Shown in pieces: positions 6,982 through 64,000 of a stretch of DNA of 64,000 nt. Location of the stretch: the NCBI GenBank assembly GCA_017744365.1, contig JAGIBL010000001.1, forward strand, positions 248,001 to 312,000. Reading direction: 5' to 3'. Position numbers and translations under genes: made by a program. The notes below the pieces were generated by a model. The model was not told where the DNA came from. It worked only from the letters and a program-made list of their open reading frames with translations, and ran no database searches. Every line of letters starts with the position of its first letter. Position 1 is the stretch's first letter. The stretch is from Nocardioidaceae bacterium (GTDB lineage Bacteria; Actinomycetota; Actinomycetes; Propionibacteriales; Nocardioidaceae).

Positions 6982-8534
6982 CGGATTCCTCTCTCGGAGC
7001 CGGAGGTGCCGCCCCAGCGCGCCACCAGGCGGGCGACGCGCGGGTCGGGCTGGTCGAAGAAGTCCTGGCCGGGGGTGACCTCGAGCAGCTCGACGGTGCC
7101 GCCGCGCTGCTCGACCAGAGCGGCGATCTCGTCCGGGTCGACCCGCTGGACCAGGTCGGCCGGCTCGGCCGGGACGTCCACGCCGGTGGCCGCGAACTCC
7201 AGCATCATCACGCCGCCGCGGCGCAGCGCCATCGAGCCGAGCAGCACCAGCAGGTCGCGGGCCTCGGCGTTCAGGCAGCCGACCAGGCCGCGGGCGTAGA
7301 GGTTGACCGGCTCCGGCGCGCGGGCGAGCTCGGCCCCGGTGACCAGCACCGAGCGGCGGTCGTTGAGGGAGAGCGTGGCCACCTCGACGTCGGTGATCCC
7401 GGCCCGGTCCAGCCGCCGCCGGGTCTGCCGCAGGGCGGTGCCGGCGAAGTCGTAGGCGCGCACCGGGTGGCCGACGTTGGCCAGCCAGACGGTGTCGCGG
7501 CCGTTGCCGCAACCGAGGTCGGCCAGCGGAGCGCCCTCGCCCAGGTACTGGTGCGCCCACCGGGCCGCCTCCGAGGGGCGCCACGGCACCTCGCTGCTGC
7601 GGTAGCGGAGCAGCTCGTTCCAGGCGATCACGTCGCTGCGGAAGCCGCGCAGCCAGCCGTCCAGCCGGCGGATGCCCTCGGGCGGGTCGACCGCCTGGAA
7701 CGCCGGGTCCGGCACCCGCCAGCTCGGCCCGTAGAGGAACTCGAGCACTGCCTCGGGGTCGGCCGGCGCGGCCAGCTCGACGCCCTCGAGCACGACGCTG
7801 GAGGCGGGCGTCACGGCCGCGCGCGGCAGTCGTCCGCTGCGGGCGCCGAGCTCGTAGAAGACGCCGCTGACGTGGAACGCGCCGAAGATGTCGATCTGCA
7901 CGTCGCGGCCGTCGTCGAGCTTGTGGAAGAGCTTGAGGTCGGCGCCGGACATCCGCACCAGCCGCCAGCCGCGGCGACGCATCGCGCGCTCCATCGCGTA
8001 GGACTCGCGGATGATGTCGGCCGGGGTGGTGTGCTCGCTGTAGTAGGCGAGGTCGGCGTCGGAGTCGTGGCCGATCATCTTGCCGTTCCGTACGGCGCCG
8101 AGCAGGCAGCCGTAGCTCAGGTGCGCGTCGAACCCGTCCTCGCGCAGGTCGGCCAGCGCCCGGCGGGTGCCCTCGACGACCTGGGCCCGGGTGTGGTCGT
8201 CGGTCTCGGAGAAGACCCGGGTGAGGTGGCCCATCTTGTCGATGGCCAGCGGGTGCCCGTGCTGGTCGCGCAGCTGCAGCGGGGCACCCTCGCCGCGGAA
8301 GGTGACGGACTCGTCGTACAGGGTGGTGCCGTCACGCTCCAGCCGCACCTGCGTGGTGCCGGACAGGCGCTTCTCCAGCAGCTCGGGCCAGCGCACCCGC
8401 CAGCCGCCACGCGAGCGAGAGCCGTCGCGCTCGGGCACGAACGACCAGATGTAGGCGTCGTCGAAGGAGACGACCACCGGGCCGCGGATGCGGCGGGGGA
8501 CGACGACGTACTCGTCGGTGACGGCTGCTGCCAT
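6978..8534 (-). CDS. LicD-like nucleotidyltransferase fused to SAM-dependent methyltransferase
   Basis: A 518-residue two-domain protein. Residues about 136-230 resemble the LicD/fukutin nucleotidyltransferase fold: '[20 protein letters not shown]' (142-161) has the expected LLGAVR and aspartates 157, 159 and 161, followed by DVQIDIFG. Residues 325-510 are a class I methyltransferase with motif [10 protein letters not shown] (339-347). LicD proteins normally decorate cell-wall polymers with phospho-substituents, so the fusion may modify and methylate an envelope glycan. That role is inference. The start ATG 8534 is preceded by a G-rich site, and TATACT on the minus strand (8585-8580) is a plausible -10. 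Confidence 0.8.
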
Positions 8535-8579
8535 CGAGCTCGCACCCCCTTCGCGACGACTCCTCCATTGTCGAGCGCG

Positions 8580-8585
8580 AGTATA
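8580..8585 (-). promoter_or_regulatory. Candidate -10 element for the LicD-methyltransferase operon
   Basis: TATACT on the minus strand, 46 bases upstream of the ATG at 8534 and just beyond the end of ndgR. No clear -35 is visible, so this rests on one hexamer. Confidence 0.35.
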
Positions 8586-8599
8586 GGTTTACCCGCCGT

Positions 8600-9322
8600 T
8601 CACTCCGCGGCAGCCCGGCGCAGCGACTCCGAGAGCCGGTCGGCCGCGGCCAGCACGGCAGGCGCGTGCATCCGGCCCGGCTGGCGGGAGAGCCGCTCGA
8701 GCGGCCCGGAGACGGAGACCGCGGCGATGATCTTGCCGCTGGGAGAGCGGACCGGTGCGGAGACCGAGGCGACGCCCTGCTCGCGCTCGCCGATGGACTG
8801 CGCCCAGCCGCGGCGGCGGATGCCGGCCAGCGCGGTCGCGGAGAAGGCGGCGTTCTGCAGGCCGCGGTGGATCCGCTCCGGGTCCTCCCAGGCGAGCAGG
8901 ATCTGCGCGGCCGAGCCGGCGCGCATGGTCAGCTGCGAGCCGACCGGGATGGTGTCGCGCAGGCCGCTGGGCCGCTCGGCGGCGGCGACGCAGACGCGGT
9001 ACTCGCCCTGGCGGCGCCACAGCTGGGCGGACTCGCCGGTGATGTCGCGCAGCCGGGCCAGCACCGGGCCGGCTGCGGCCAGCAGCCGGTCCTCGCCGGC
9101 GGCCGCGGAGAGCTCGGCCAGCCGGGGCCCGAGGACGAAGCGGCCCTGCATGTCGCGAGCGACCAGCCGGTGGTGCTCCAGCGCGACCGCCAGCCGGTGC
9201 GCGGTCGGACGGGCCAGCCCGGTGCCGGCGACGAGACCGGCCAGGGTCGCCGGGCCGGACTCCAGGGCAGAGAGCACCAGGGCGGCTTTGTCGAGAACGC
9301 CGACTCCGCTAGAGTTGTCCAT
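8600..9322 (-). CDS. ndgR: IclR-family regulator of leucine/amino-acid biosynthesis (NdgR-type)
   Basis: A 240-residue IclR regulator. The N-terminal winged helix (residues 1-65) includes '[14 protein letters not shown]', and the C-terminal effector domain spans about 75-235. The start '[13 protein letters not shown]' at 9322 is the one I recall for Streptomyces NdgR; a longer in-frame form beginning upstream is possible but less likely. It is divergent from leuCD, which is the known arrangement for NdgR/LtbR regulators of leuCD and other amino-acid genes. An imperfect palindrome in the 96-bp intergenic region is a likely operator. Confidence 0.88.
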
Positions 9323-9336
9323 ATTCCAATACTGCC

Positions 9337-9353
9337 GTCTCAAAAGACGAGAT
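9337..9353. promoter_or_regulatory. Candidate NdgR operator between ndgR and leuC
   Basis: GTCTC (9337-9341) and GAGAT (9349-9353) flank a 7-base centre, giving a short inverted repeat in the divergent promoter region. Assignment to NdgR is by position and by the known NdgR/LtbR control of leuCD. Confidence 0.45.
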
Positions 9354-9418
9354 GCAAGAGTAGGCTCGGTCACAGCCCGAGCAGCACTGGTTCAACGAGG
9401 ACTCAACGAGGAGGGGCC

Positions 9419-10822
9419 ATGGGGAAGACCCTGGCGCAGAAGGTCTGGGACGAGCACGTCGTGAGGTCGGCCGAGGGCGAGCCGGACCTGTTGTTCATCG
9501 ACCTCCACCTCATTCACGAGGTCACCTCCCCGCAGGCGTTCGACGGCCTGCGGCTGGCCGGTCGCACCGTCCGCCGTCCCGACCTCACCCTGGCCACCGA
9601 GGACCACAACGTCCCGACGATCGACTGGGACAAGCCGATCGCGGACCCGGTCTCGGCCACCCAGGTGGAGACGCTGCGCAAGAACGCCGCCGAGTTCGGC
9701 GTCCGGCTGCACCCGCTCGGTGACCTCGACCAGGGCATCGTGCACGTGGTCGGCCCGCAGCTCGGCCTGACCCAGCCGGGCATGACCATCGTCTGCGGCG
9801 ACAGCCACACCAGCACCCACGGTGCCTTCGGCGCGATCGCCTTCGGCATCGGCACCTCCGAGGTCGAGCACGTGCTGGCCACCCAGACGCTGCCGCAGGC
9901 GAAGCCCAAGACCATGGCCGTCACCGTCAACGGCTCACTGCCCGCCGGCGTGACCGCCAAGGACCTGATCCTCTACCTGATCGCGCAGACCGGCACCGGC
10001 GGCGGCCAGGGCTACATCGTCGAGTACCGCGGCCAGGCCATCGAGGAGCTCTCCATGGAGGGCCGGATGACCGTGTGCAACATGAGCATCGAGTGGGGTG
10101 CGAAGGCCGGCCTGATCGCGCCCGACCAGACCACCTTCGACTACATCGAGGGCAAGCCCGAGGCGCCGACCGGTGCCGACTGGGACGCCGCGGTCGCGCA
10201 CTGGCGGACGCTGGTCACCGACGCCGACGCGAGCTTCGACAAGGAGATCGTGATCGACGCGGCCGACGTCACGCCCTTCGTCACCTGGGGCACCAACCCG
10301 GGTCAGGGCGTGCCGCTGGGCGGGAACGTGCCGACGCCGGCCGACTTCGAGGAGGAGCAGGACCGGGTCGCCGCCGAGAAGGCCCTGGAGTACATGGGTC
10401 TCGAGGCGGGCACCCCGATGCGCGACATCAAGGTCGACACCGTCTTCGTCGGCTCCTGCACCAACGGCCGCATCGAGGACCTGCGGCTGGCCGCGTCCAT
10501 CCTGCAGGGCCACCAGGTCGCCGAGGGCACCCGGCTGCTCGTCGTCCCGGGCTCGGTGCGGGTGCGCAACCAGGCGATCGAGGAGGGTCTCGACAAGATC
10601 TTCACCGCGGCCGGCGCCGAGTGGCGTGGTGCGGGCTGCTCGATGTGCCTGGGCATGAACCCCGACCAGCTCGCGCCGCAGGAGCGCAGCGCGTCCACCT
10701 CGAACCGCAACTTCGAGGGCCGGCAGGGCAAGGGGGGCCGCACCCACCTCGTCTCCGTCCCGGTCGCGGCCGCCACCGCGGTCCGCGGCACCCTGTCGTC
10801 CCCCGCCGACCTGGAGGCCTGA
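9419..10822 (+). CDS. leuC: 3-isopropylmalate dehydratase large subunit
   Basis: Aconitase-family subunit that isomerises 2- to 3-isopropylmalate in leucine synthesis, acting with LeuD in the cytoplasm. The protein has 467 residues, normal for the family. The three [4Fe-4S] ligands are Cys347 (GSCTNGR), Cys407 and Cys410 ([10 protein letters not shown]). The '[13 protein letters not shown]' motif is also present. ATG 9419 has a strong GAGGAGG site just upstream. leuD follows after three bases. Regulation by the divergent NdgR is likely. Confidence 0.97.
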
Positions 10823-15938: not shown

Positions 15939-16990
15939 GCGCCGAACTGTAGAGCCTGCTCGAGGTCCGTCCAGAGGTCTTCGACATTTTCGATGCCGAC
16001 CGAGAGCCGGACCAGGCCCTCGGGGATCGTGACCGGTTCGGAGGCCCACCGGCGGCGACGCTCCAGCGACGACTCCACACCACCGAGCGAGGTCGCGTTG
16101 ACCCAGAGCCTGGTGCTCGCGGTCATCCGGTCCGCGGCCTCGGCGGAGCCGAGCACGACCGAGACCATCCCGCCGAAGCCGGGGTAGCGGACCTCCGTGA
16201 CGGCCGGGTGCGCGGCCAGCCTCGCGGCCAGCTCGGTCGCGTTCTCCTGGGCCTTCTCGACCCGCAGCGCCAGCGTCCTCATCCCGCGCAGCGCCAGCCA
16301 CGCCTCGACCGTGCCGGGGATGGCGCCGAGCAGGTCGCGCCGCCCCTTCAGCACGCCGTGCAGCTGCTCGTCCTGGGTGACCAGCGCGCCCAGCAGCAGG
16401 TCGGAGTGCCCCGAGAGGTACTTGGTCGCCGAGTGCACCACGATGTCCGCGCCGAGCTCGAGCGGCCGCTGCAGGATCGGCGTCGCGAAGGTGTTGTCGA
16501 CCGCGACCCGGGCGCCGGCCTCGTGCGCGGCCGCGATGATCGCGGGCAGGTCGGCGACCTCCATGGCCGGGTTGGTCGGCGACTCCAGCCAGACCAGCGC
16601 GGCGTCGTCGCAGGCCGCGATCACCGCGGCGGTGTCGGTGATGTCGACGAGCCGGGTGCGGACCCGGCCGCGGGCCTCCAGGTCGGCGAGCTGGCCGATG
16701 CTGCCGTTGTAGGCGTGCCGGGGCGCGACCACGACCTGGTCGGCACCGACGAGGTCGAGGACTGTCGCCACCGCGGCCAGCCCGCTCGCGAAGGAGAGGC
16801 AGCGCGCACCGTCGCCCTCCAGCGCCGCCAGGGTCTCCTCGAACGCCTCCCAGGTCGGGTTCGCGTACCGGCCGTACTCGCGGTCCCCGCCGGCGACGTA
16901 CGTCGAGGCCATCGTGATCGGGGCGTTGAAGGGCGCGTCCGGCTCGCGGTCGGGCCGGCCGGCGTGCACGGCACGGGTGGAGGGATGCAT
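15935..16990 (-). CDS. Trans-sulfuration PLP enzyme (cystathionine gamma-synthase/lyase family)
   Basis: A 351-residue Cys/Met-metabolism PLP enzyme. The PLP lysine is Lys190 in 'HSATKYLSGHSDLLLGA', and the tetramer-contact 'YGRYANPT' begins at residue 39. Family members interconvert homoserine esters, cystathionine, cysteine and homocysteine; sequence alone does not separate synthase from lyase. TACTCT on the minus strand lies six bases before the ATG, so the mRNA is probably leaderless. It heads a two-gene operon with the GNAT and is divergent from ddl by 43 bp. Confidence 0.88.
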   Translation of the reverse strand: MHPSTRAVHAGRPDREPDAPFNAPITMASTYVAGGDREYGRYANPTWEAFEETLAALEGDGARCLSFASGLAAVATVLDLVGADQVVVAPRHAYNGSIGQLADLEARGRVRTRLVDITDTAAVIAACDDAALVWLESPTNPAMEVADLPAIIAAAHEAGARVAVDNTFATPILQRPLELGADIVVHSATKYLSGHSDLLLGALVTQDEQLHGVLKGRRDLLGAIPGTVEAWLALRGMRTLALRVEKAQENATELAARLAAHPAVTEVRYPGFGGMVSVVLGSAEAADRMTASTRLWVNATSLGGVESSLERRRRWASEPVTIPEGLVRLSVGIENVEDLWTDLEQALQFGA

Positions 16991-38218: not shown

Positions 38219-40839
<2,621 letters not shown>

Positions 40840-40880
40840 CGTACGGCGTCCCGGCAGGAGCCACCAGCAGTGAGCGGCCG

Positions 40881-40943
40881 GTAACACGGCCGTAACACGA
40901 CGGTGGGCGCGTCACACGAACGAAACACGTGACGCGCCCACCG
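40881..40943 (+). promoter_or_regulatory. GlnR-like boxes embedded in a 16-bp palindrome before the second amtB
   Basis: GTAAC-n6-GTAAC lies at 40881-40896 and a perfect GTCAC-n6-GAAAC at 40911-40926. The latter falls within the left arm and loop of a perfect inverted repeat (40900-40915 with 40929-40944) with a 13-base loop. The element can act as terminator for the first amtB-glnK pair and as operator for the second. Confidence 0.65.
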
Positions 40944-40947
40944 TTAA

Positions 40948-42654
<1,707 letters not shown>

Positions 42655-49907: not shown

Positions 49908-50642
49908 CTAGCCGTCCCGTCGAGCGAACGTCAGCCCACCGAGGCACACCACGATCGCGGCCGTCACGACCATCGTGACGGCCGCGATCGTCGTTCCGGC
50001 CGGGAAGCTCTGGTCGGTGGACAGCTGGGCGCCGTGGACGACCTGGGTCACCACGGTTCCCGGGCTGGCGCCCACCACCCACGGCTGCAGCGACCCGAGC
50101 AGCCCGGCCGCGGCCTTCGGCAGCAGCAGCGCGGCGAGCACGATCGCGGTCGACGCGGTCGCCGACCGGGTGAGCACGCCGACCGCCGCGCCGACCGCCG
50201 CGACCGCGACGGCCGTCAGCGCGGTGCCGGCGAGAGCGACGGGATCGCCGGTCCGGTGTCCCGGCGGCGTGACCGCGGCGACCAGGGCGAACGAGAGGGC
50301 TGCTCCCACCAGTGCGCCCGCGCCGGCGACCGTGGCGGTGGCCGCGATCTTCGCCCCGTAGAGCAGTGGCCGCCGTGGCACGGTCGCGAGGCTGACGATC
50401 AGGGTGCGCTGGGTGTACTCGCTGCTCGCCACCGCCGCCGCCCAGGCACCGAACCCGGCCAGGAGCACCATCGAGCCGCTCGCGGCACCGCTGGTCACCG
50501 TGTCGCGCGCCCCGAGCCCGCCGCCCGAGACGACCAGCAGCGAGGTGAGCGGCAGGGCCAGCGTCGCGGCCACCGTGCCGACCCGGAAGCCGCGCACGGT
50601 GGCGATCTTGACCAGCTCGGCGGTCAGGGCGGCCCGGATCAC
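49908..50642 (-). CDS. ABC-2-type transporter permease (operon A)
   Basis: A 244-residue membrane protein with about six helices, including the typical ABC-2 segments 'ELVKIATVRGFRVG' and 'EYTQRTLIVSLATVPRRPLLYGAKIAA'. It forms the channel of an exporter with the ATPase encoded upstream, whose stop it overlaps as GTGA. Substrate unknown. It is the last gene of the four-gene operon and is convergent with khpA, ten bases away. Confidence 0.88.
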   Translation of the reverse strand: MIRAALTAELVKIATVRGFRVGTVAATLALPLTSLLVVSGGGLGARDTVTSGAASGSMVLLAGFGAWAAAVASSEYTQRTLIVSLATVPRRPLLYGAKIAATATVAGAGALVGAALSFALVAAVTPPGHRTGDPVALAGTALTAVAVAAVGAAVGVLTRSATASTAIVLAALLLPKAAAGLLGSLQPWVVGASPGTVVTQVVHGAQLSTDQSFPAGTTIAAVTMVVTAAIVVCLGGLTFARRDG

Positions 50643-51355
50643 GACCCCACCAGGGCCAGGTAGCGCTTCTCCAGGGCGCCGGGCTCGTCGCTGCCCACGA
50701 ACGCGGCCATCGGCTCCGCCGCGAGGATGCGGCCCTCGTCGATCAGCACCACGTCGTCGGCGACCTGCTCGACCTCGCTCATCAGGTGGCTGGAGACCAG
50801 CACGGTCCGGCCCGCGTCGGCCAACGTGCGCAGCACCGTGCGCAGCCAGCGGATCGTGGCCGCGTCGAGCCCGTTGTGCGGTTCGTCGAGGATCACCACC
50901 GCCGGGTCGCCGAGGAGCGCGGTGGCGAGCCCGAGCCGCTGGCGCATGCCCAGCGACATCTGGCCGAACGGCAGCGTCGCGATGGCGTGGAGGCCGACGG
51001 TCTCGATGGCCGCGCCGACGGACCAGCGAGGCAGGCCGTTGCTCGCCGCGACCACGGCGAGGTGACCCCGGGCGGTCCGGCCCGGGTGGACCGCGTCCGG
51101 CGAGAGCAGCGCGCCCGCGACCCGGATGGGCTGCGGGTGCTCGCGGAACCGACGGCCGCCGATGGTGGCGCGGCCCGAGGTGAGGTGGTCGATGCCCAGG
51201 ATCGCGCGCAGCGTGGTCGACTTGCCGGCGCCGTTCGGTCCCAGGAACGCGGTGACCCGGCCGGGCAGTGCTGTGAAGCTCACGTCCTCGAGCACGGTCA
51301 CGCCGTCGATCACCTTGGACGCCGCCTCGACCTCGATCGCCAGCGGTTCAGGCAT
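50639..51355 (-). CDS. ABC transporter ATPase (operon A)
   Basis: A 238-residue nucleotide-binding protein of the drug/lipid-export type. Walker A is 'GPNGAGKST' near residue 40. The signature is the diverged SLGMRQR, Walker B is 'VVILDEPHNGLD' and the switch histidine is in 'VSSHLMSEVEQ'. It pairs with the downstream ABC-2 permease. It overlaps the upstream lipoprotein gene by eight bases, so all are co-translated. Confidence 0.92.
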   Translation of the reverse strand: MPEPLAIEVEAASKVIDGVTVLEDVSFTALPGRVTAFLGPNGAGKSTTLRAILGIDHLTSGRATIGGRRFREHPQPIRVAGALLSPDAVHPGRTARGHLAVVAASNGLPRWSVGAAIETVGLHAIATLPFGQMSLGMRQRLGLATALLGDPAVVILDEPHNGLDAATIRWLRTVLRTLADAGRTVLVSSHLMSEVEQVADDVVLIDEGRILAAEPMAAFVGSDEPGALEKRYLALVGS

Positions 51356-52145
51356 GCGGTGCCTTCGCGGCCTTCTCGAAGGTCCCTTCCAGGTGCCAGC
51401 GCCCGATGAACCGGTTGAACGGGCCGCCGACGATCAGGCTGGTCCACTCCAGCACGAACCGGCCGGTCTTCTCGTCGTACGTGCCGGTCGCGCCCTTCCC
51501 GGTGATCGTCGGGGCCGGCGCGGACTCCAGGTACGTCCCGGCGACCCAGTCCCAGACCTTCTCGGCCTTCTCCTGGCCGGGCGCCTTGGCGCCGGTGCTG
51601 GAGACCGGCTTGGGCGCGCCCTGGTTGAAGACCTGGTTGTTCCAGGTGACGCCCCACGACGACAGGTCGGCGGTGAGCCTGCCGTCCTTCACATACGCCG
51701 TCGGCGGCGCGACCTTGGTCCGGGTCTGCGGGTCGACCGGGTTGGTCGCGATGCTGAACCGCACGCCGAAGAACTTCGTCGGCCTGGTGATCGCGGCCGC
51801 GAGGGAGTCGCCGTCGGCCGCGAACGCCGGGCGTGGCTGCGACTGGTACCCGCCCAGCCGGATGCCGCCGGAGGTGCCCGGTGCCAGCAGGGTGGCCTCG
51901 CCGCCGTCGGCCGGGGAGTCGGCGTTCCTCATGTACGGGCCCTTCGTCGCGCTGCCGCCGACCTGCACCATCCGGAACCAGGTCCCGGTCACCTTCCCCG
52001 CCTCGACCGATCCCGGGGCGAGCTCGAGCAGGCCGACCAGCTCGGTGCCGCGGTCGTCCCTCGCGGAGCCCTGGTCGGTCGAGCAGGCGGTCGGCCCGAG
52101 CAGGGCCGTGGCGGTCAGGACCGCGATCAGGAAGCGCTTGGTCAT
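51348..52145 (-). CDS. Probable lipoprotein with unassigned exported domain (operon A)
   Basis: A 265-residue exported protein. The N-terminus is a signal peptide ending in 'LLGPTAC' with Cys21 as probable lipid site; proline at -3 is not ideal for a lipobox. Residues 34-257 form one domain with hallmarks 'WFRMV', 'GPYMRNADS', 'LAPGTSGG', 'TNPVDPQT', 'WNNQVFNQGAPKP' and 'IVGGPFNRFIGRWHLEG'. The secreted protein at 55738-56811 has the same blocks in the same order. I cannot name the domain. It starts at ATG 52145, overlapping the upstream membrane-protein gene. It may be the extracellular component of the ABC system. Confidence 0.82.
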   Translation of the reverse strand: MTKRFLIAVLTATALLGPTACSTDQGSARDDRGTELVGLLELAPGSVEAGKVTGTWFRMVQVGGSATKGPYMRNADSPADGGEATLLAPGTSGGIRLGGYQSQPRPAFAADGDSLAAAITRPTKFFGVRFSIATNPVDPQTRTKVAPPTAYVKDGRLTADLSSWGVTWNNQVFNQGAPKPVSSTGAKAPGQEKAEKVWDWVAGTYLESAPAPTITGKGATGTYDEKTGRFVLEWTSLIVGGPFNRFIGRWHLEGTFEKAAKAPHA

Positions 52146-53116
52146 GGTGATTCCTTTCGCCGGCGGGACCCGGACGCCGCCACCGTGAGTGAGCCGAGGA
52201 CGCCGGCGCCGACGAGCAGCCACGGCATCGCGACCAGCCCGGAGATGCCGACCGGGCGGGTCAGGTCGTCGAGGTCGCGCAGGGCCCGGTAGTCGGCGAG
52301 GCTGTCGTTGATGGCGCCGACCAGGCCGGCCAGGTCCGAGGAGACCGCCGGCCAGGCTCGGACCAGGGCGGCGAGGTCGCGCTCGGCCCTGCCGGTGCGC
52401 GAGACCGCCCGGAATGCCGTGTCGAGCTCGCCGACGGCGTGCACCAGGACGACGAAGTCCTCCTGCTGCTGGCGGACGGTCGCCTCCGTCATCACCGGAG
52501 CCAGGGCGTGCTGGAGCCGCTCGCCGGCGCGGGAGCCGTCCGGGAGCCCGCTCACGAACGGGTAGCCGATCAGTGCCGCCGACGCCGCGAGCGCGAGCAG
52601 CCGCGCCCCGGTGGCGCGCTGCCGGGGCCCGCGGAGCAGCGTCGTGCCGGCGTACGCCATCGACAGCCCCGCCACCACGACCAGGAACGGGATCCGGTCG
52701 AACCCGCCGACGCCGGCGACCTGCCGGTAGTCCGGCGCCGCGGCACGCACCCGGCCGAGCAGGTCGGTTCCGCGCGCGTCGATCGCGGGCGCCGTCGCGC
52801 GGTACTCGTCCAGTCCGCGGAAGCGGCCGGCCGGCACCTGGCGCTGCCGGTACACCTCGTCGATCGCGGCCGCCCCGCGGCGCAGCGTGCCGAGATCGGC
52901 GTCGTACCGGTCCAGCGCGTCGGCGGTGAGGTGCGGCGCGAACCCGTCGACGAGCTGCTGGCCCGAGGCGGCCCGGGCGAACAGCCCGCCGGCCACCGGG
53001 ACGACGGCGAGCAGCGCGCCGAGCACGAGCATCGCCAGCGCCGGCAGCCGACGGCGGTGCGCCGGTGCGGCGACCGCGCGGACGACCGGGGGCGCGACGG
53101 GCAGGACGAGGGTCAT
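52142..53116 (-). CDS. Multi-pass membrane protein of unknown family, first gene of operon A
   Basis: A 324-residue protein with a membrane helix near residues 25-48, a long extracytoplasmic helical segment (about 50-140), two central helices (about 145-200), a second extracytoplasmic segment and a final helix near 290-312. I recognise no family. ATG 53116 is preferred; TTG 53149 is in frame but would nearly abut the palindromic operator. No ribosome-binding site is evident at either start. It overlaps the lipoprotein gene as ATGA. Confidence 0.72.
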
Positions 53117-53158
53117 GAGTGCTCGGCTTCGGGGAGGGGTGCCAGCCAATTGGAGTTA

Positions 53159-53177
53159 GTCAATCAAGTGTATCGAC
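53159..53177. promoter_or_regulatory. Palindromic operator upstream of operon A
   Basis: GTCAATCA and GTATCGAC flank a 3-base centre (19 bp in all, imperfect dyad). It begins 43 bp upstream of the ATG at 53116, in an AT-rich patch unusual for this DNA. A related 19-bp dyad precedes operon B at nearly the same distance. Confidence 0.6.
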
Positions 53178-53228
53178 AATATCCTCCGAGGGCACCGGCG
53201 CCCGCAGGGTGGGACCCGATCCACCACA

Positions 53229-53774
53229 ATGGGCGCCGTGAGCGTGGAGGACTATCTCGTCGTGGGCCGGATCGGCAAGCCGCACGGCCTCAAGGGCGAG
53301 GTCTCGGTGGAGCCGCGGACCGACGAGCCCGAGCGCCGTTTCGCTGCCGGCGCCTCCCTGCAGGTGGAGCGGCCCCGGCCCGGCGCCGGCGGGACGCTCA
53401 CCGTCCGCGCCTCGCGCTGGCACTCCGGCCGGCTGCTGGTCACCTTCGAGGAGATCACCGACCGGAACGCGGCCGAGGCGGCACGCGGCACCGTGCTCGT
53501 CGTCCCGGTGGACCCGGACGAGCAGCCCGAGGACCCCGAGGAGTTCTACGACCACCAGCTCGTCGGCCTCGCGGTGGAGAGCCCCGACGGCACCCGGCTC
53601 GCCACGGTCACCCGCGTCGAGCACACCGGGGCGCAGGACCTGCTGGTCCTCGACGTCGACGGTCGCTCGGTGCTGTTCCCCTTCGTGCAGGCGCTGGTCC
53701 CCCTGGTGGACGTGCGCGGCGGCCGGGTCGTCGTCGACGACCGCCCCGGCCTGCTCGCCGAGGAGGCGCCGTGA
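53229..53774 (+). CDS. rimM: Ribosome maturation factor RimM
   Basis: A 181-residue 16S rRNA processing factor. The N-terminal domain begins '[19 protein letters not shown]', and a PRC-barrel C-terminal domain ('[13 protein letters not shown]', '[14 protein letters not shown]') binds S19. ATG 53229 is used; GTG 53238, seven bases after CACAAT, is an alternative leaderless start. trmD overlaps its stop as GTGA. Confidence 0.94.
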
Positions 53775-54937
53775 GGATCGACGTCGTCTCGATCTTCCCC
53801 GGCTACCTGGCCCCGCTGGACCTGTCGCTGCCCGGCAAGGCTCGCGAGTCCGGTCTGGTCGACCTGCACGTGCACGACCTGCGCGGGTGGGCTCACGACC
53901 GTCACCGCACAGTCGATGACACCCCCTACGGCGGCGGCGCCGGGATGGTGATGAAGCCGGAGCCGTGGGGCGAGGCGCTCGACGCGATCGCCCCGGACGG
54001 CGCGACCCTGATCGTGCCCACGCCGGCCGGACGGCCGTTCACGCAGGCCCTGGCGGCCGAGCTGGCCAATCGCGAGCGCCTCATCTTCGCGTGCGGCCGA
54101 TACGAGGGCATCGACCAGCGGGTGCTCGACGACGCCGCTCGTCGGCTCGACGTCGTCGAGGTGTCGCTGGGTGACTACGTGCTCAACGGCGGGGAGGTGG
54201 CCGCGCTGGCGATCACCGAGGCGGTCATCCGGCTGCTGCCCGGGTTCATGGGCAACGCCGCGTCGCTGACCGAGGAGTCCCACGCTCTGTCCGATTCGGG
54301 GGCGAGCCTGCTGGAGTACCCGGTGTACACCAAGCCGGCCTCCTGGCGCGGGCTGGACGTGCCCGAGGTGCTGCTGTCCGGCGACCACGGCCGGATCGAG
54401 GCCTGGCGGCACGACCAGGCTCTGCGCCGTACGGCGGAGCGCCGGCCCGACCTGCGGCATCCGGCCGAGACGCTCGGCGACCTGGAGCTGAGGGCCGCCG
54501 TGCCCGCGGACGCCGGCGAGCTGTTCACCCTGCAGCGGGCCTGCTGGGTGCAGGAGCAGCAGGCGAACCCCGGGGTGGAGATCCCCGCGCTCGGCGAGGA
54601 GCTCGACGACGTTCGGCGCTGGCTGGCCCGCGACACCGTGCTGGTGGCGCGCGCCTCCGGCCGGCTGGTCGGCGCGGTCCGGGCACGGCTGCAGGACCAG
54701 GTGTGGGACATCGGCCGGCTGATGGTCGCCCCGGACCTGCAGGGACGCGGGCTCGGGCAGGCGCTGCTGGAGCGGATCGAGGCCGCCGCCCCCGAGACGG
54801 CCCGGGAGTTCGAGCTCTTCACCGGGGCCGGGAGCACCCGGAACCAGAGGATGTACAAGAAGGCCGGCTACCGGCTGCGCGGCCCGGCCCCCGGGGACCC
54901 GGGCGCGGTCCGGCTGACCAAGCGGCGTCCGTCCTAG
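53771..54937 (+). CDS. trmD: tRNA (guanine37-N1)-methyltransferase fused to GNAT domain
   Basis: A 388-residue fusion. Residues 1-232 are TrmD, a SPOUT methyltransferase that makes m1G37 to prevent frameshifting: '[17 protein letters not shown]', '[10 protein letters not shown]', '[11 protein letters not shown]' and '[13 protein letters not shown]' are present. Residues 235-388 are a GNAT acetyltransferase with motif A '[18 protein letters not shown]' (QGRGLG 324-329). The join is a continuous frame with no stop or ribosome-binding site between. The GNAT substrate is unknown. Confidence 0.93.
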
Positions 54938-54955
54938 GCTCTTCCTAGGCCCTTC

Positions 54956-55738
54956 TTACGCGCTGGTGTCGTGCAGCAGCGCGTTCTGCAGCGCGACGAC
55001 GCACCCGCCCAGCGCTGAGGTCGCCAGCTTCTGCGCGTACGGCGCCAGCGCCGCGGCCAGCCGGGTCTCGGACTCCAGGAACCGCTGCCGGTACGGGCCG
55101 TAGAGCGGTCCCAGCAGCGCGAACCCGGTGTCGAGCAGCCGCTCGAACGGCCTGAGCAGCGGGTCGAGCAGCGGACTCACCGTCGGCGCCAGCGCGGGGT
55201 ACTTCGCCAGGATCGGCCCGATCAGCTGCAGTGCCGGCTGGTAGGCCGAGGCCATCGCGAACGCCTCCGCCGAGAACGGCCCGAACGCCGGGGCGAAGTC
55301 GATGAGCGACTGCAGGCCGCCGTCGCTCTCGGAGGACGCGATGTCGATCGGGCACGGGGTGGTCCGCGCCGATGCCGGGGGCGGAGTCGGCTGCTGGCTC
55401 GGGGTCGCGGCCGGCGCTGTCGGCGCTGTCGGCGCCGCCGCCGGGGCCGCCGGGGCGCTCGGCTCCGTGGCGATCGGCACCGCGACCCCGCCGCTCCCCA
55501 GGGGTACCGAGGCGGGCACCGGGGCCGGGGCGAGCGGCGCCGAGGGCGCGGCCACCTGGGCGGCCACCTGGGCCGGTGCCGTGCCCGCGGGGATGGAGGT
55601 CGTCCTGGTGACCGTGTCGACCCGGACCGAGAACGCGGCCAGGACGAGCAGGTCGATCACGACGAAGCCGAGCACCACGTTGCGCAGGACGGTGTGCGAG
55701 ACGCGGTCGAGCCGGAGCCTGGAGATCGGGTTCGGCAT
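54956..55738 (-). CDS. Membrane-anchored helical extracytoplasmic protein (operon B)
   Basis: A 260-residue protein. A basic N-terminus and one helix (19-37) are followed by an Ala/Pro-rich linker (50-125). The C-terminal domain (140-260) is helical with many Leu/Pro turns ('FAPAFGPFSAEAFAMASAYQPAL…') and two cysteines (129 and about 247) that could form a disulfide. I recognise no family. ATG 55738 overlaps the stop of the upstream secreted-protein gene by one base, so the two are co-translated. Confidence 0.72.
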   Translation of the reverse strand: MPNPISRLRLDRVSHTVLRNVVLGFVVIDLLVLAAFSVRVDTVTRTTSIPAGTAPAQVAAQVAAPSAPLAPAPVPASVPLGSGGVAVPIATEPSAPAAPAAAPTAPTAPAATPSQQPTPPPASARTTPCPIDIASSESDGGLQSLIDFAPAFGPFSAEAFAMASAYQPALQLIGPILAKYPALAPTVSPLLDPLLRPFERLLDTGFALLGPLYGPYRQRFLESETRLAAALAPYAQKLATSALGGCVVALQNALLHDTSA

Positions 55739-56811
55739 CAGGCCACCCCGCGATGCGTGCGCGAATGACCCGCGAGCGCGAGCAGGATCAACGCCCCGAA
55801 GCCGAGCACGGCCAGGCCGCCGGCCAGCCAGATGACCGGCCAGGAGACCCGCCAGTCCTGCGTGGTCACCGTCCGGGAGGTGGCGACCGGCTGGGTGACC
55901 TCGCCGGCGGCGACCGGCAGGCCGTTGGCCGGGCTCGCGAGCGGGGCGCCGGGGGCGGTCGTGGCGGCGCCGCCGGTGGTCGTGCTGGTCCCGCTGCTGC
56001 CGGTTGCCGGGGTGCCGGTGCCGCCGCTCGCAGCGGTGCCCGTGGTCGTCGTACCGGAGGTGGTGGTCGTCCCGGAGCCGGCCGTGGCGGCGGGCGCGGA
56101 CGCCGGCACGAACCGGCCCTCGAAGTGCCACTTGCCGGTGAACTTGTCGAACGGGCCGCCGACGATCTGGCTGGTCCAGTCGAGGGTGAAGGCGCCGGTG
56201 CGGGCGTCGTAGGTCCCGGTGGCGGCCCGGGTGTTGCCGGGCAGCGAGCCGTCGGGCTTCGGCGCGCCCTGGTGGAAGTGCTGGTTGTTCCAGGTGACCG
56301 AGAAGCTGCGCAGGTCGGCGCTCAGGGTGCTGCCGCTGACCGTCACCCGGGGCGCCGGAACGGCCCGCTTCGTCTGCGGGTCGACCGGGTTCGTGGCGGT
56401 GGCGAAGCTGGTGCCGTAGAAGCGCGCGGGGGCGGTCAGCCGGTGCGCCTTGGCATCGCCGTTGGCCGCGAACGCGGGGGAGGGGATCGACTGGTACGAG
56501 CCGACCCGCAGGCCTCCGTCGGTCCCGGGGGCCAGCGGCGTGAGGCTGTGGTCGGAGCAGGTCGAGTCGTTGTTCGACAGGTACGGCCCGTCGGCGCCGC
56601 CGCTGGGCAGGATCATCCGGAAGTAGGTCCCGGTGGCGCGGCCCCCGGAGCAGGTGCCCGCGGTCAGCCGCAGCGTGCCGGTGAGGGGAGTGGCCGCGGT
56701 CCGCGGGGCCTCCGGGCGTGCGGCGGCCGCCGCTGCGGCTGCCGGCGCCACCAGGGCGACCGTGGCGAGGAGGAGGGCGGCGAGGCGCCCAGGGAGGGGG
56801 AGGGGTGACAT
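55738..56811 (-). CDS. Secreted, membrane-anchored protein with the same unassigned domain (operon B)
   Basis: A 357-residue protein. It has a signal peptide (1-31), an exported domain (about 42-235), a Thr/Gly/Ala-rich wall-spanning linker (240-310), a C-terminal membrane helix (about 324-346) and a basic tail. There is no LPxTG sortase motif. Domain blocks 'YFRMI', 'GPYLSNNDS', 'LAPGTDGG', 'TNPVDPQT', 'WNNQHFHQGAPKP' and 'IVGGPFDKFTGKWHFEG' match the lipoprotein of operon A. Cys54 and Cys85 may pair. ATG 56811 is preferred; TTG 56823 is in frame. Confidence 0.8.
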   Translation of the reverse strand: MSPLPLPGRLAALLLATVALVAPAAAAAAAARPEAPRTAATPLTGTLRLTAGTCSGGRATGTYFRMILPSGGADGPYLSNNDSTCSDHSLTPLAPGTDGGLRVGSYQSIPSPAFAANGDAKAHRLTAPARFYGTSFATATNPVDPQTKRAVPAPRVTVSGSTLSADLRSFSVTWNNQHFHQGAPKPDGSLPGNTRAATGTYDARTGAFTLDWTSQIVGGPFDKFTGKWHFEGRFVPASAPAATAGSGTTTTSGTTTTGTAASGGTGTPATGSSGTSTTTGGAATTAPGAPLASPANGLPVAAGEVTQPVATSRTVTTQDWRVSWPVIWLAGGLAVLGFGALILLALAGHSRTHRGVA

Positions 56812-59339: not shown

Positions 59340-60644
59340 CTACCGGTCCAGCGCGGGGTCGCTGGGCGGCAGCGTGACGTTCTGGTCGGTGGAGTAGGTC
59401 AGGCGCAGGCAGGCCTGGGTGCCGTTGGAGTAGACGTCGCCGACGATCACGACCGCGTTGAGTGCGGTGGCGCAGGAGTTGCCGGGGAACCTCAGCAGCG
59501 ATCCCGGGGCGTAGATGGTCCCGGTGACCTGGGCGTTCCCGTTGCCCTGCAGGCTCAGCTCCGCGGTGTTGGTGCGGTCGTAGGCGATCGCGAGCCCGGT
59601 CAGCGGTCCGGACGTCGGCGCGGACAGGTCAGTGTCGCCGTTCTTGACGTCGAGCCAGCCACCGGGCGTGTTCTTGCAGACGACGGGTGCGCTCGGCGAG
59701 CCGCAGGTGAAGTAGAGGGTGACGCCGGCGCCCTGAAGCAGGGAGTTGTTCTTCAGGTCCCACAGGCCGGTGATGACGTAGAGCCCCGCGGTGAGGTGGC
59801 AGGTTGCGTTCGGCACCGAGAACGCGCCGTAGCGGCCGGGGCCCTGCGTGCACGGGTTGGTCTTCGCGGTGGCGGTCGCGGTCCCGGGCAACGGGAACGT
59901 GAGGACGCCGAGCAGCGGGTCGTCGAGGTGCCCGGCACCCGTGGTCGCCGTCGGGGTGCAGCAGCCGCCGGTGGCGGAACCCTCGACCGAGATCGTGTTG
60001 CCCGCCGGGCTGACCGTGGTGGTGCTGGTCGGCTGTGCGCTGAGGTTGCCGTTCATGTGCACCGAGGCGCCGGTGACCGTGATGTCTCCGTTCCCGACCC
60101 CGTGCGTACCCGGTCCGATGACGCACAGGCCGCACGGGTAGGTGCCGGTGGTCTGCAGGGCCGCCCGCGCCCGGGAGGCGACCGGGACCGAGCTGACACC
60201 GGCGAGCGCGCCCAGGCCGGTCTTGACGTCGCGGGTCGGCATCACCACCCACACCTTGCTGGGCTTGGTGAGGCTGTCGAAGGAGATGCAGGCCGGCGAG
60301 CCGGCGTTGGGCTGGAAGCCGGCCGGCGGTGCGGCACACGAGGCCCAGTCGCCCTCCTGGACGCCGAAGTTCACCGCGGCGTAGGACTTGGCCGCGGACA
60401 CCGCGTCCAGCAGGCACGGCGGGACGGCACCGGCCGGGTTGACGCAGGCGGCCGGGTAGAGCGCGTTCGCGGCCGCCAGCGCGGAGGCGTCCGCGGCGTT
60501 CTGGGACTGGCGCCGGGTGTCACGGGCCAGGCCGAGGTCGACGACGATGGCGGCCAGCACGAACAGGCTGAGCGCGCAGATCGCGACGATGACAGCGACC
60601 GCGCCGGTCTCGTCGCGGTGGGCGCGCCGGGTGCGGAGCCTCAC
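59340..60644 (-). CDS. TadG-like surface/pilus-assembly protein
   Basis: A 434-residue protein. The N-terminal 'DETGAVAVIVAICALSLFVLAAIVVDLG' is the TadG/TadE-type membrane segment, followed by 'RRQSQNAADASALAAA' as in Flp-pilus TadG-like proteins. The large exported remainder is Thr/Gly/Asn-rich with many cysteines (including CGLC and GGCC), suggesting disulfides. The GTG overlaps the tadE-like stop as GTGA. A role in surface attachment structures is inferred from the family. Confidence 0.85.
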   Translation of the reverse strand: MRLRTRRAHRDETGAVAVIVAICALSLFVLAAIVVDLGLARDTRRQSQNAADASALAAANALYPAACVNPAGAVPPCLLDAVSAAKSYAAVNFGVQEGDWASCAAPPAGFQPNAGSPACISFDSLTKPSKVWVVMPTRDVKTGLGALAGVSSVPVASRARAALQTTGTYPCGLCVIGPGTHGVGNGDITVTGASVHMNGNLSAQPTSTTTVSPAGNTISVEGSATGGCCTPTATTGAGHLDDPLLGVLTFPLPGTATATAKTNPCTQGPGRYGAFSVPNATCHLTAGLYVITGLWDLKNNSLLQGAGVTLYFTCGSPSAPVVCKNTPGGWLDVKNGDTDLSAPTSGPLTGLAIAYDRTNTAELSLQGNGNAQVTGTIYAPGSLLRFPGNSCATALNAVVIVGDVYSNGTQACLRLTYSTDQNVTLPPSDPALDR

Positions 60645-61135
60645 GAGCACCAGTCCCAGGTGGCGCCGGCGGGCAGGGCGTCGGCGGTGTTGGTCCAGGC
60701 GCCGGCCTGGGTGGCCTGCTCGATGGACATCTGGGTCTTCGAGGTGATCCAGCCGCCGTTCGGCATCGGCAGCAGGCCGAGCGCGCCGTCGGCCTTGACC
60801 ATGGCGCAGACCACGACGGCCTTGCCCTTCTGCCAGTTCGCGGCGTTCACCTTGACGTACGGCGTGCCGGCGATGGCGCCGATGTCCTTGCGGGTCGAGC
60901 AGCGCAGCCGGGCCGAGTTCGTGCCCGTCGTACAGGAGGCGTCGTAGCCGAAGCTCTCGACCACCGCGTGCCGGGCGCCCTCGCGGACACCCTGCCGGGT
61001 GCTCAGCGAGTCGCTGAACCAGAGCCCGTACTGGATCATCCCGAAGAGCACGAGGAAGAGCACGCTGCTCACCAGTGCGAACTCGACGGCCGCGGCGCCC
61101 TCCTCGTGCCGCGAACGTCTCGTCAGCGCATGCAC
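60641..61135 (-). CDS. TadE-like minor pseudopilin
   Basis: A 164-residue protein with the TadE signature 'EEGAAAVEFALVSSVLFLVLFGMIQYGLW'; the Glu within AVEFAL is the conserved residue of pseudopilin-like helices. The C-terminal part is exported and has several cysteines. GTG 61135 is chosen because GGAAGGA lies eight bases upstream; in-frame starts at 61141 and 61171 exist. It is the first gene of the minus-strand tad pair. Confidence 0.85.
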   Translation of the reverse strand: MHALTRRSRHEEGAAAVEFALVSSVLFLVLFGMIQYGLWFSDSLSTRQGVREGARHAVVESFGYDASCTTGTNSARLRCSTRKDIGAIAGTPYVKVNAANWQKGKAVVVCAMVKADGALGLLPMPNGGWITSKTQMSIEQATQAGAWTNTADALPAGATWDWCS

Positions 61136-61289
61136 CCGCACGATCCTTCCGTCGTACGACGACGCGCACATCGGGCGATCGGGTCGGGCCGAGTCGGCCG
61201 ATCGGGGCGGGTGACTACGCGGGAATCGGACCGTTCGGGGGAGGAACCGGGTCTAGACCACTCCTTCCGGCGGCGGGCCAACCGGACAT

Positions 61290-61295
61290 TAGCGT
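61290..61295 (+). promoter_or_regulatory. Candidate -10 element for the plus-strand tad genes
   Basis: TAGCGT seven bases before a GTG (61303) that opens a 33-codon frame ending inside the tadE-like gene. The hexamer spacing matches leaderless promoters elsewhere in the window. Whether the short frame is translated is uncertain. Confidence 0.35.
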
Positions 61296-61381
61296 CGTTA
61301 TCGTGAGTGTTCCGGTCGGATTCGAGGGTTCGCGATGCCGACGCGCCTCAGTCGTCCGGATGGGGCGTTGGGGGCAACAAA

Positions 61382-61834
61382 GTGAGAGCTGTGCGACGGC
61401 GTGACGAGCGGGGCGCGACCGCGGTCGAGTTCGCCCTCATCATGATCCCGCTGCTGGTGGTCGTCTTCGGCCTCGTGCAGTACGGCCTGTACTTCTACTC
61501 CGCGCAAAGTGGATCCAATGCGGTCAACGCGGCCGTCCGCCAGCTCTCGGTCGGCAACTGCCAGAACAGCACCCAGCTGACCAGCTACGTGAAGAACCAG
61601 CTCGGTGCCGCAGCGACCGACGCCCCGGCCGTGACGCAGTCCTGGAAGAAGGTGGACGGCACGAGTGCGGGCAGCCTCCTCTTGGCCGACGTCGGCGGCA
61701 CGGTCCAGCTCAGCATCAGCTTCCACACCATCAACATGCACTTCCCGCTCGTTCCGTTCCTCAGTGACGCGGTCATCAAGCGCCAGGTGACGGCACGGAT
61801 CGAGGACACGAAGGACCAGGGGTGTCCGTCATGA
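61382..61834 (+). CDS. TadE-like minor pseudopilin
   Basis: A 150-residue protein. 'DERGATAVEFALIMIPLLVVVFGLVQYGLYFYS' is the TadE helix with the conserved Glu. The exported part ends in 'FHTINMHFPLVPFLSD'. GTG 61382 is used, since upstream codons add no hydrophobic or signal character; a GTG three codons later is possible. It overlaps the next gene as ATGA. Confidence 0.87.
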   Translation: MRAVRRRDERGATAVEFALIMIPLLVVVFGLVQYGLYFYSAQSGSNAVNAAVRQLSVGNCQNSTQLTSYVKNQLGAAATDAPAVTQSWKKVDGTSAGSLLLADVGGTVQLSISFHTINMHFPLVPFLSDAVIKRQVTARIEDTKDQGCPS

Positions 61835-63549
61835 TGCGGTTCGCCCGACGTGACGAACGAGGCGCGGTCGCGGTCATCTTCGCGATCAGCGCCCTGATGC
61901 TCTTCGGTATCGCCGCCATGGGGGTCGACCTGGGCAACGCCATGAACCGCAGGAAGGAGACGCAGAACTCCGCGGACCTGGCTGCCCTGGCCGGTGCGTC
62001 CGGACTGCCAGCGCAGGACGACACCACGAGGCAGCTGGTGGCCGACTACCTGAACAAGAACGCGGCCGCGACCGACGCCAACGACAAGTGCGACACGTCG
62101 AGCGGGGACGTCACCGTCGCCCAGCTCAAGGACGGTGACAACTCCAACGGTGAGGTGACCTTTCCTGGCGCCAACAGGATCAAGGTGGTCTCCCCGTCGT
62201 CGAAGGTGGCCTTCGGGCTCGGCAACGCCATCGGCTTCAAGGACACCTGCGTGCAGAGCGTCGCGACGGCGGCGATCAAGTCCGGCGGCACGGGCATGGC
62301 GCCGTACTACGCCGCCGCGCCGTGCGACAGCGGCCCGAACGTGCTCAAGAGCGACGCGGGCGGCCCCAGCATCCCGTTCTCACCCCCGCCGCTGTCGCAC
62401 GACGGGGAGACCAACACCTCAGTGCTCGGCGGTGACCTGGCGCCGAACCAGGTCACGCCGGTCGCGACACCAGGGGACCCGGCGCACCTATTCATCACGG
62501 TTTCGGGCACCAACCTGAGCGCCACGGACATCGACTCGGTGGGCTTCTTCAACTCCGATCTCTCCGAGCCGGTCGTCTCCAACGTCTTCCTCAACCAGAA
62601 TGCAACCTCGATCACCGTCCAGCTGCCGAATGCCGTCGAGTCCCGCGGCGACGTGTGGTGGGTGCGGGTGCACCACAAGGTCGTGACCACGGCTCCGGTC
62701 CCCGCCTCCAGCGACAAGTGGTCGGCGCGGGGCGACGCGCGGCCGCTGATCATCGGTGACGCCACGCTGTCCTGCAACCCGGAGTCGGCCTCCGGCAACT
62801 TCGGGTCGATCCAGATCCCGCACGGCTTCAACAACGACAAGGACGACCTCGTCGCCAACATCCAGGACGGCGTGCTGGCGCCGATCAGCCTGGCGCCGTT
62901 CCCGGGCACGTTGCCGGCCGACGGCGACTGCCGCACGATGGGCACGCCGAGCGTCACGAGCGCCGACCCGGCGCCGCACAACCCGGGGACCAACTGCGTG
63001 GACACGCTCACCGGGCTCGGTGCCGGAGACGCCTACGACGGCTACCTGAGGAACCCGAACGGCAAGCTGCTCACTGACACCTCCTCGCGCTGCTCCGCGT
63101 CACCGCAGAACCGGCCCGCCCGGTTCACGCTGTCCACCGGGGAGAGCGTCAACAACGACACGCTCTCGTGCTTCCTGGTGAACGACACCCTGCACCTGTC
63201 GGACCTGATCAGCGTCCCGACGGGTGCCGCCCCGAAGCTCGACCAGTCGATCTGGAGCTCGCCCCGCTTCATGCAGGTGCCGATCCTCGACCACGACCCG
63301 CGTGGCCACACCTGGATGCCGATCCTGCGGTTCAAGGCGGGCTTCGTCACCGACGAGGTCACCGGCTCGAGCCGCAACGCGCCGCTGTTCGCAGGTGACA
63401 CCGAGAACGGCTTCGTGATGCAGAACCCGCACAAGCTGCGCGCCATCCGGATCTTTTTCTTCGACCCTGACTCGCTGCCGGCGCCGCCCGACGGCGGACC
63501 GCTGACCGACTACATCGGCGGTCCCAAGGTGATCACGCTGGAGAACTGA
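61831..63549 (+). CDS. TadG-like secreted protein, large
   Basis: A 572-residue protein. The N-terminal 'DERGAVAVIFAISALMLFGIAAMGVDLGNAMNRRKETQNSADLAALAGA' is the TadG-like membrane anchor. The exported region of about 520 residues is Asp/Asn/Ser/Thr-rich with eight or more cysteines and no repeats. ATG 61831 overlaps the tadE stop; GTG 61822 is an upstream alternative. It probably forms part of a surface appendage or its assembly machinery. Confidence 0.85.
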   Translation: MMRFARRDERGAVAVIFAISALMLFGIAAMGVDLGNAMNRRKETQNSADLAALAGASGLPAQDDTTRQLVADYLNKNAAATDANDKCDTSSGDVTVAQLKDGDNSNGEVTFPGANRIKVVSPSSKVAFGLGNAIGFKDTCVQSVATAAIKSGGTGMAPYYAAAPCDSGPNVLKSDAGGPSIPFSPPPLSHDGETNTSVLGGDLAPNQVTPVATPGDPAHLFITVSGTNLSATDIDSVGFFNSDLSEPVVSNVFLNQNATSITVQLPNAVESRGDVWWVRVHHKVVTTAPVPASSDKWSARGDARPLIIGDATLSCNPESASGNFGSIQIPHGFNNDKDDLVANIQDGVLAPISLAPFPGTLPADGDCRTMGTPSVTSADPAPHNPGTNCVDTLTGLGAGDAYDGYLRNPNGKLLTDTSSRCSASPQNRPARFTLSTGESVNNDTLSCFLVNDTLHLSDLISVPTGAAPKLDQSIWSSPRFMQVPILDHDPRGHTWMPILRFKAGFVTDEVTGSSRNAPLFAGDTENGFVMQNPHKLRAIRIFFFDPDSLPAPPDGGPLTDYIGGPKVITLEN

Positions 63550-63625
63550 ACCCGACTAGACCTTTTTGCCATAATTCGGACAAATCTGCACAAACGCCCT
63601 ACCCTCGATCTCGGGAGGGGTGCAG

Positions 63626-64000
63626 ATGGGTTCTCGCGCGAGAAGGCGCGAGTGCGAACACGGCGCGACGGCGGTCGAGTTCGCACTCGTGATGCTTCCT
63701 GTGCTGATGCTGGTGTTCGGGCTGATCCAGTACGGCCTCTACTTCTGGGCGATGCAGGGCGGCAGTGACATCGCCCGCAGCGCGGCGCGGCTGGCCGCCG
63801 TCGGGAAGCCTGCTGACTGTGCGGCGTTCCGGGCCGACATCCGTAGCCAGGTCAACGACCTCACCGGCAGCGGATCCACCGCGACGGTCACCCGCAGCTA
63901 CGTGCGCACGAAGCCGCCGGCCGTCAGCATCGGCGACACGGTGACGGTGCAGGTCAGCTTCAAGAGCGTCGACCTGCACTTCCCGTTCGTGCCGTTCATC
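63626..64000 (+). CDS. TadE-like minor pseudopilin (3' end outside window)
   Basis: An open frame of 125 codons running off the right edge. It begins 'MGSRARRRECEHGATAVEF', and 'ALVMLPVLMLVFGLIQYGLYFW' completes the TadE helix. Its visible end 'SVDLHFPFVPFI' resembles the end of the TadE-like protein at 61382 ('TINMHFPLVPFL'), so the two are paralogues. ATG 63626 has GGGAGGGG just upstream. Confidence 0.87.
   Translation, partial: MGSRARRRECEHGATAVEFALVMLPVLMLVFGLIQYGLYFWAMQGGSDIARSAARLAAVGKPADCAAFRADIRSQVNDLTGSGSTATVTRSYVRTKPPAVSIGDTVTVQVSFKSVDLHFPFVPFI

Follow-up and report, generated by a model that had tools for sequence, protein, structure and literature searches.

A rare actinobacterial gene cassette encoding two surface proteins that share an unnamed, predicted all-beta domain

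The stretch of DNA analysed here, hereafter the window, is 64,000 nucleotides long and comes from a Nocardioidaceae bacterium (contig JAGIBL010000001.1, positions 248,001 to 312,000). A first-pass annotation, made from the letters alone, had singled out two exported proteins with a common domain, here denoted A and B, and both open reading frames lie where it placed them (51348-52145 and 55738-56811). The finding is better framed as a rare surface cassette of several genes, including three unnamed families (A/B, X and C), than as two domain-sharing proteins. The relevant genes, called in the window by a codon-usage script, are the following.

49908..50642, minus strand: ABC-2-like permease of an ATP-binding cassette (ABC) transporter, with a weak Pfam score below the cut-off
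50639..51355, minus strand: ABC transporter ATPase (PF00005), overlapping the end of A
51348..52145, minus strand: A, candidate lipoprotein with the shared domain (about 51372-52043), which carries a ~27-residue insert
52142..53116, minus strand: X, four-transmembrane protein of two like halves (transmembrane segment, three helices, transmembrane segment), overlapping the start of A
54956..55738, minus strand: C, with one N-terminal transmembrane segment, a Pro/Ala-rich stalk and a conserved C-terminal domain, overlapping the end of B
55738..56811, minus strand: B, exported, with the shared domain (about 56104-56688), a Gly/Thr/Ala-rich stalk and a C-terminal transmembrane segment

A and B are homologous, old paralogues that share one predicted all-beta domain on different anchors. 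The two proteins are 48% identical over 227 residues (BLASTP, E 3e-66), and all six sequence blocks picked out by the first-pass annotation are present in both, in the same order. The domain comprises about 195 residues, or 224 when the insert, which B lacks, is included. The invariance of Trp, Asn and Gly residues that had been noted for the pair holds in a 28-row alignment, in which no Cys, His or Met is invariant and only Met30 and His222 reach 90%. The domain could not previously be matched to a named family, and library searches bear this out. Pfam yields no family for A or B at E <= 10, and individual scans of 28 members (A and B among them) yield weak, scattered matches only (best E 0.017, in 2 members); NCBIfam, searched with the window's four proteins A, B, C and X, has no match for A or B; and a profile of the 28-row domain alignment matches no PDB sequence at E <= 10. 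The beta-rich fold anticipated by the earlier reader agrees with the AlphaFold model of the A domain (predicted local distance difference test, pLDDT, 79.9; predicted TM-score 0.79), which is made of strands throughout, except for the disordered insert and one helical turn. Comparison of this model with known structures returns nothing at E <= 0.001 by Foldseek in the PDB (best 0.24) or among the BFVD viral models (best 0.18). Resemblances of the model to lipocalin, LpqH and MxiM (E 0.24 to 2, TM-score <= 0.32) are not used as evidence. A heme domain of the HtaA/CR or NEAT type was considered and rejected, given no Pfam match and no Tyr in the invariant or 90% columns of the 28-row alignment. 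A literature search with three motif strings of the domain found nothing, and among the matches listed by a broad search on surface lipoproteins nothing was relevant by title.

The anchors of the family are diverse and include lipobox-like, transmembrane-stalk and sortase-like types. A of the window has a single N-terminal hydrophobic segment followed by GPTAC; as had been suggested, it is a likely lipoprotein that adjoins ABC genes, but GPTAC misfits the lipobox pattern used. Among 26 A-position rows, 13 fit this pattern, 7 (including A of the window) have a Cys behind small residues, and 6 have none. B of the window contains an N-terminal hydrophobic segment and a second one, at residues 326-344, that is preceded by the Gly/Thr/Ala-rich stretch, in agreement with the earlier description of a stalk with a membrane anchor; it has no sortase tail (LPxTG-like motif, hydrophobic stretch, basic tail). 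Inspection by eye of 20 B tails shows a plain transmembrane-like stretch in 13, a sortase-like tail in 3 (L039, L047 and L048, with the motifs LANTG, LPNTG and LAFTG across the three), no tail in 3 and, in the remaining one, a tail that reads out of character. Genome G196 encodes two-domain versions with a spacer.

A, B, X and C form one conserved gene set, four to six neighbouring genes in all and often with an ABC exporter; X and C had escaped the first-pass annotation. Profiles built for the domain, for X, for C, for the ABC genes and for two additional families were run against all frames of 29 loci, including the window; L030 stands outside the counts, being a duplicate of L012. In 21 of the 29 loci, X and an A/B gene share a strand, with X immediately 5' of the latter. 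This arrangement is missing from L033, L042 and L045, where the A gene is cut at a contig end; L010 and L047 contain B genes of genomes that carry X at a different locus, and X is absent from L044 and L081. C is present in 16 of the 29 loci and as a fragment in L083 (8292-9255, genome G1092), where X, A/B and C persist as short fragments only, in cassette order, a decayed cassette. The ABC ATPase is found in 9 loci. In 7, a permease gene of its own fits the profile, whereas in L061 and L082 a single gene of 491-495 residues combines the ATPase with a hydrophobic second half, unmatched by the permease profile. The order B-X-A-C-ABC occurs in a row in Tsukamurella (L061), G1051 (L082) and Gordonia (L031, where C is read in a gap between called genes). 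Nocardia loci have B-X-A-C wherever the contig is long enough, and the B-X-A-C sets of Nocardia and Antrihabitans are without ABC genes. In L033 and L045, an A-ABC half and a B-C half stand tail to tail. The assignment of A and B to separate operons, which are parted in the window by genes named by eye as rimM and trmD, is thus valid for the window but not for its relatives, in which both genes belong to one cassette and several times to one gene run; the two operons of the window are accordingly the halves of a single cassette.

Because the loci had been collected through A/B, X and C were searched independently in the 196 genomes of the window's order. X was found in G000, G153 and G007, with a partial copy in G097 (E 5.4e-5), and C in G000, G153 and G007, the same three genomes that hold A/B. 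This count of 3/196 omits G097, with its partial X, and G002, with an A/B match (E 7.5e-4) containing three internal stops. The probability that two sets of three among 196 agree by chance is 8e-7 if kinship is ignored, two of the three genomes being of one genus. Three listed genomes of the window's genus, G061, G079 and G122, have none of the A/B, X and C families.

Two loci have additional features. L081 contains a very divergent A/B pair without X (8615-10158), and the same genome, G812, has X-A-ABC-B on another contig. In L045, a DUF4395 protein (8482-8985, E 8.4e-34) is encoded between B and C; L011 has a look-alike, judged by eye, at 16229-16750.

X is a tandem duplication: profiles of its two halves align with 99.8% probability (E 1.7e-27). 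Each half consists of a transmembrane segment, a helical ectodomain of about 95 residues and a second transmembrane segment, and a short loop connects the halves. The AlphaFold model of X (pLDDT 90.0) is entirely helical, and ranks 1-7 of its Foldseek matches in the PDB are all chains of TTYH1, TTYH2 or TTYH3, the best with E 0.008, probability 1.00, a TM-score of 0.31 and a root-mean-square deviation of 10.9, values that have no control model beside them. We take this predicted likeness to TTYH as a lead, not as family membership. Searching PDB sequences with X gives 6 matches, the best at E 0.11. The matches of X to SPW, TgpA_N and DUF4131 (best 3.1e-4, in at most 4 of 14 members) were set aside as matches of transmembrane composition.

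C has two invariant Cys (15 rows) and is helical by appearance. Pfam gives three families for it, each in 1 of 15 members (best E 0.01), and the PDB one match, at E 1.4. A is followed by the ATPase and permease genes, each overlapping the gene before it; the ATPase scores 84.7 bits to PF00005, above the cut-off, and the permease, with 12.5 and 12.6 bits, stays below the cut-offs of the ABC-2 models. The ABC transporter of the window has the look of an exporter rather than of a heme importer.

The cassette is rare and patchily distributed. In overlapping genome samples, the domain occurs in 4 of 196 genomes of the window's order (B as query; one match weak and partial), 5 of 394 of its class (one a remnant), 3 of 396 of the phylum (two-row profile), 1 of 16 of the order of G196 and 1 of 249 of the class of G295. 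Two peptide patterns run against a species-genome collection retrieve 17 loci, all from Actinomycetota (Nocardia 7, Acidimicrobiia 4, Aeromicrobium 2, Nocardioides, Gordonia and Antrihabitans 1 each, and 1 unplaced). A phage origin was considered and rejected, as phage records gave no match and viral contigs, searched with two peptide patterns, none that was confirmed. One record labelled as a plasmid has the domain (Tsukamurella NZ_LR134461.1, L061); it also carries a gene annotated as ftsY and may be a mislabelled piece of chromosome. In a maximum-likelihood tree of 42 domains, which leaves out the A-copy fragments of L041 and L045 as well as L080-L083, the A lipoproteins that bear the insert group in a single clade (100/100, 13 of the 42 rows) with members from Nocardioides, Gordonia, Nocardia, Antrihabitans, Tsukamurella and Acidimicrobiia. 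Along this tree, A of the window is closer to Acidimicrobiia copies (path lengths 0.52 and 0.53) than to that of Gordonia (0.68), and its ATPase is 67.5-70.5% identical to those of L033, L039 and L045 compared with 55.9% to the Gordonia one. Together with the patchy occurrence, these affinities of A and the ATPase suggest transfer between lineages.

The explanation that we favour, tentatively and as possible rather than probable, is that the cassette is a relay for a hydrophobic ligand, with a binding domain shared by A and B and with X as its membrane hub; ligand, direction and mechanism are all part of what we infer. The shared domain would bind the ligand, in A at the membrane and in B further out in the wall; X might pass it between the outer membrane leaflet and A/B, as proposed for TTYH proteins; C could be an anchored scaffold; and the ABC exporter, where present, would supply or extrude the ligand. 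This reading stems from the design of one domain on several anchors, as in Isd and Hta, from the TTYH lead combined with the reported lipid transfer by TTYH2, which speeds the movement of lipid between APOE particles and membranes (passage in PMC12328215), and from the exporter-like ABC genes. A bolder version, in which X is the bacterial counterpart of Tweety and prominin and A/B are new beta-domain carriers, all parts of a transferable lipid-transfer machine spanning the Gram-positive wall, we consider distinctly unlikely.

Several observations weigh against such a relay. The A model has no significant lipid-binding fold among its PDB matches. For the X model, no PDB match reaches E 0.001, the TM-score of the TTYH match is only 0.31, and rank 8 onward consists of unrelated helical proteins (trypanosome receptors, a chemoreceptor and others). 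X has four transmembrane segments, compared with five in TTYH; PF04906 (Tweety) and PF05478 (Prominin) are absent from the 11 Pfam families listed for 14 X members; and all matches of the Tweety and Prominin profiles in 7 genomes, up to E 10, lie elsewhere than X. The ABC genes are missing from 20 of the 29 loci, some of which are contig pieces, and, being absent from most loci, are not essential. The insert-free A-position proteins (L011, L042, L043, L044, G295) fall in another group of the tree, outside the A clade, so that A and B do not separate as paralogues in a single clean split, and in G196 the A-position protein clusters with that genome's own B proteins. Finally, three loci point instead to copper/thiol chemistry.

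In these three loci, a gene for a protein of 743-800 residues and one for a CopC-CopD protein stand beside the A/B genes.

L011 11069-16158, L049 1921-7199 and L081 2313-7318: unnamed, distantly methanethiol-oxidase-like family of 743-800 residues with CopC-CopD

Of the rival leads, this copper/thiol context is the strongest, and it argues against a simple lipid account. The cassette would then be an accessory of extracytoplasmic copper/thiol chemistry, in which A/B and their partners carry or sense copper or a thiol substrate for the methanethiol-oxidase-like enzyme, and cassettes without that enzyme would have lost or replaced it; we regard this as unlikely. The three genomes belong one each to the window's family, to another family of its class and to a more distant part of the phylum. 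The L081 protein matches the NCBIfam methanethiol oxidase model at E 4.5e-9, but with 35.2 bits against a cut-off of 650, and the L049 protein is unmatched; that of L011 is 36% identical to that of L081 over 635 columns. CopD passes its cut-off in L011 and narrowly misses it in L049 and L081; a Peripla_BP_6 part is additionally present in L011 and L049. All three large proteins share an invariant pair of adjacent His residues, which would be compatible with the adjacent His89-His90 among the copper ligands of MtoX (excerpt of PMC5739008). A profile of the MtoX-like family has no PDB match at E <= 1. A Dyp-type peroxidase is encoded close by in L011; further hints of sulfur chemistry are a metallo-beta-lactamase/rhodanese protein 2.6 kilobases from A in L043 and the TusA- and Hdr-like Fe-S proteins encoded on the G196 contig. 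Set against these findings, the enzyme is missing from 26 of the 29 loci, several of them on short contigs, and occurs in 3 of 11 genomes searched (those of L011, L049 and L081), the whole window genome being without it; furthermore, the A/B alignment has no invariant Cys, His or Met.

Two other explanations were considered. If the domain were an adhesion or recognition module, one of the roles suggested by the first-pass annotation, a stalked B would reach beyond the wall and bind a surface or a glycan. The stalked B copies with transmembrane or sortase-type anchors (16 of the 20 tails) and the two-domain proteins of G196 fit this picture, but the most constant part of the cassette is the membrane-bound A with its adjoining X, adhesion needs neither an ABC transporter nor a four-transmembrane protein, and no adhesin- or lectin-like fold was found among the Foldseek matches of the A model in the PDB; nothing speaks specifically for adhesion, which we consider quite improbable. 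Self-protection of the LanI-LanFEG kind, with A and the ABC exporter ridding the membrane surface of a toxic hydrophobic peptide or drug, accords with the overlap of the lipoprotein gene with the ATPase-permease pair in the window and with the loci that have the ATPase. The cassettes of Nocardia and Antrihabitans that do without ABC genes argue the opposite, as does the absence of the NisI and SpaI structures from the 50 PDB matches listed for the A model; no peptide biosynthesis gene was noticed, although no search was aimed at such genes, and we judge this explanation very unlikely.

A/B, X and C are three families unnamed in the libraries searched that co-occur in distant actinobacteria. 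They mark out a defined surface system, as yet uncharacterised, which lends itself to testing as one unit. What is new are the families and their cassette, whereas the type of mechanism may prove familiar. TTYH is described as a eukaryotic family (passage in PMC12328215), and in PMC11405016, reached by a literature search on prominin, tweety and bacterial, the sole passage with the word "bacterial" concerns an expression vector. If X proves truly similar to TTYH, a small bacterial form, with candidate carriers encoded next door, would be added to a lipid-transfer fold that is described as eukaryotic.

Elsewhere in the window, there are two consecutive ammonium-transporter/PII-like gene pairs (39170-42654) and a series of genes for small TadE/TadG-like proteins of secreted or pilus type (59340-64000), both named by eye.

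Among the known systems, the Isd (NEAT) and Hta (CR) heme relays place one beta domain, in some cases repeated, on surface proteins with different anchors, encoded beside an ABC transporter, and the heme-ligand Tyr is conserved. The A/B domain likewise resides on several anchors, is repeated in some proteins and is encoded beside an ABC transporter, but it has neither a Pfam match nor a conserved Tyr, and the transporter is exporter-like, not a heme importer. In LanI-LanFEG immunity, a lipoprotein gene adjoins genes for an ATPase and an ABC-2-like permease; X, B and C have no counterpart there, and many cassettes have no ABC genes. The MtoX/SBP56 clusters resemble the three loci in which a distantly MtoX-like protein is encoded beside a copper-handling protein; the score is far below the MtoX cut-off, and the copper-handling protein is CopC-CopD here, compared with the copper chaperone SCO1 in mtoX clusters (excerpt of PMC5739008). 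TTYH and prominin have a 2+2+1 pattern of transmembrane segments with outer domains, of about 120 residues in TTYH (excerpt of PMC11405016), and X, with its four hydrophobic transmembrane regions, has the layout of a TTYH protein minus the first transmembrane segment.

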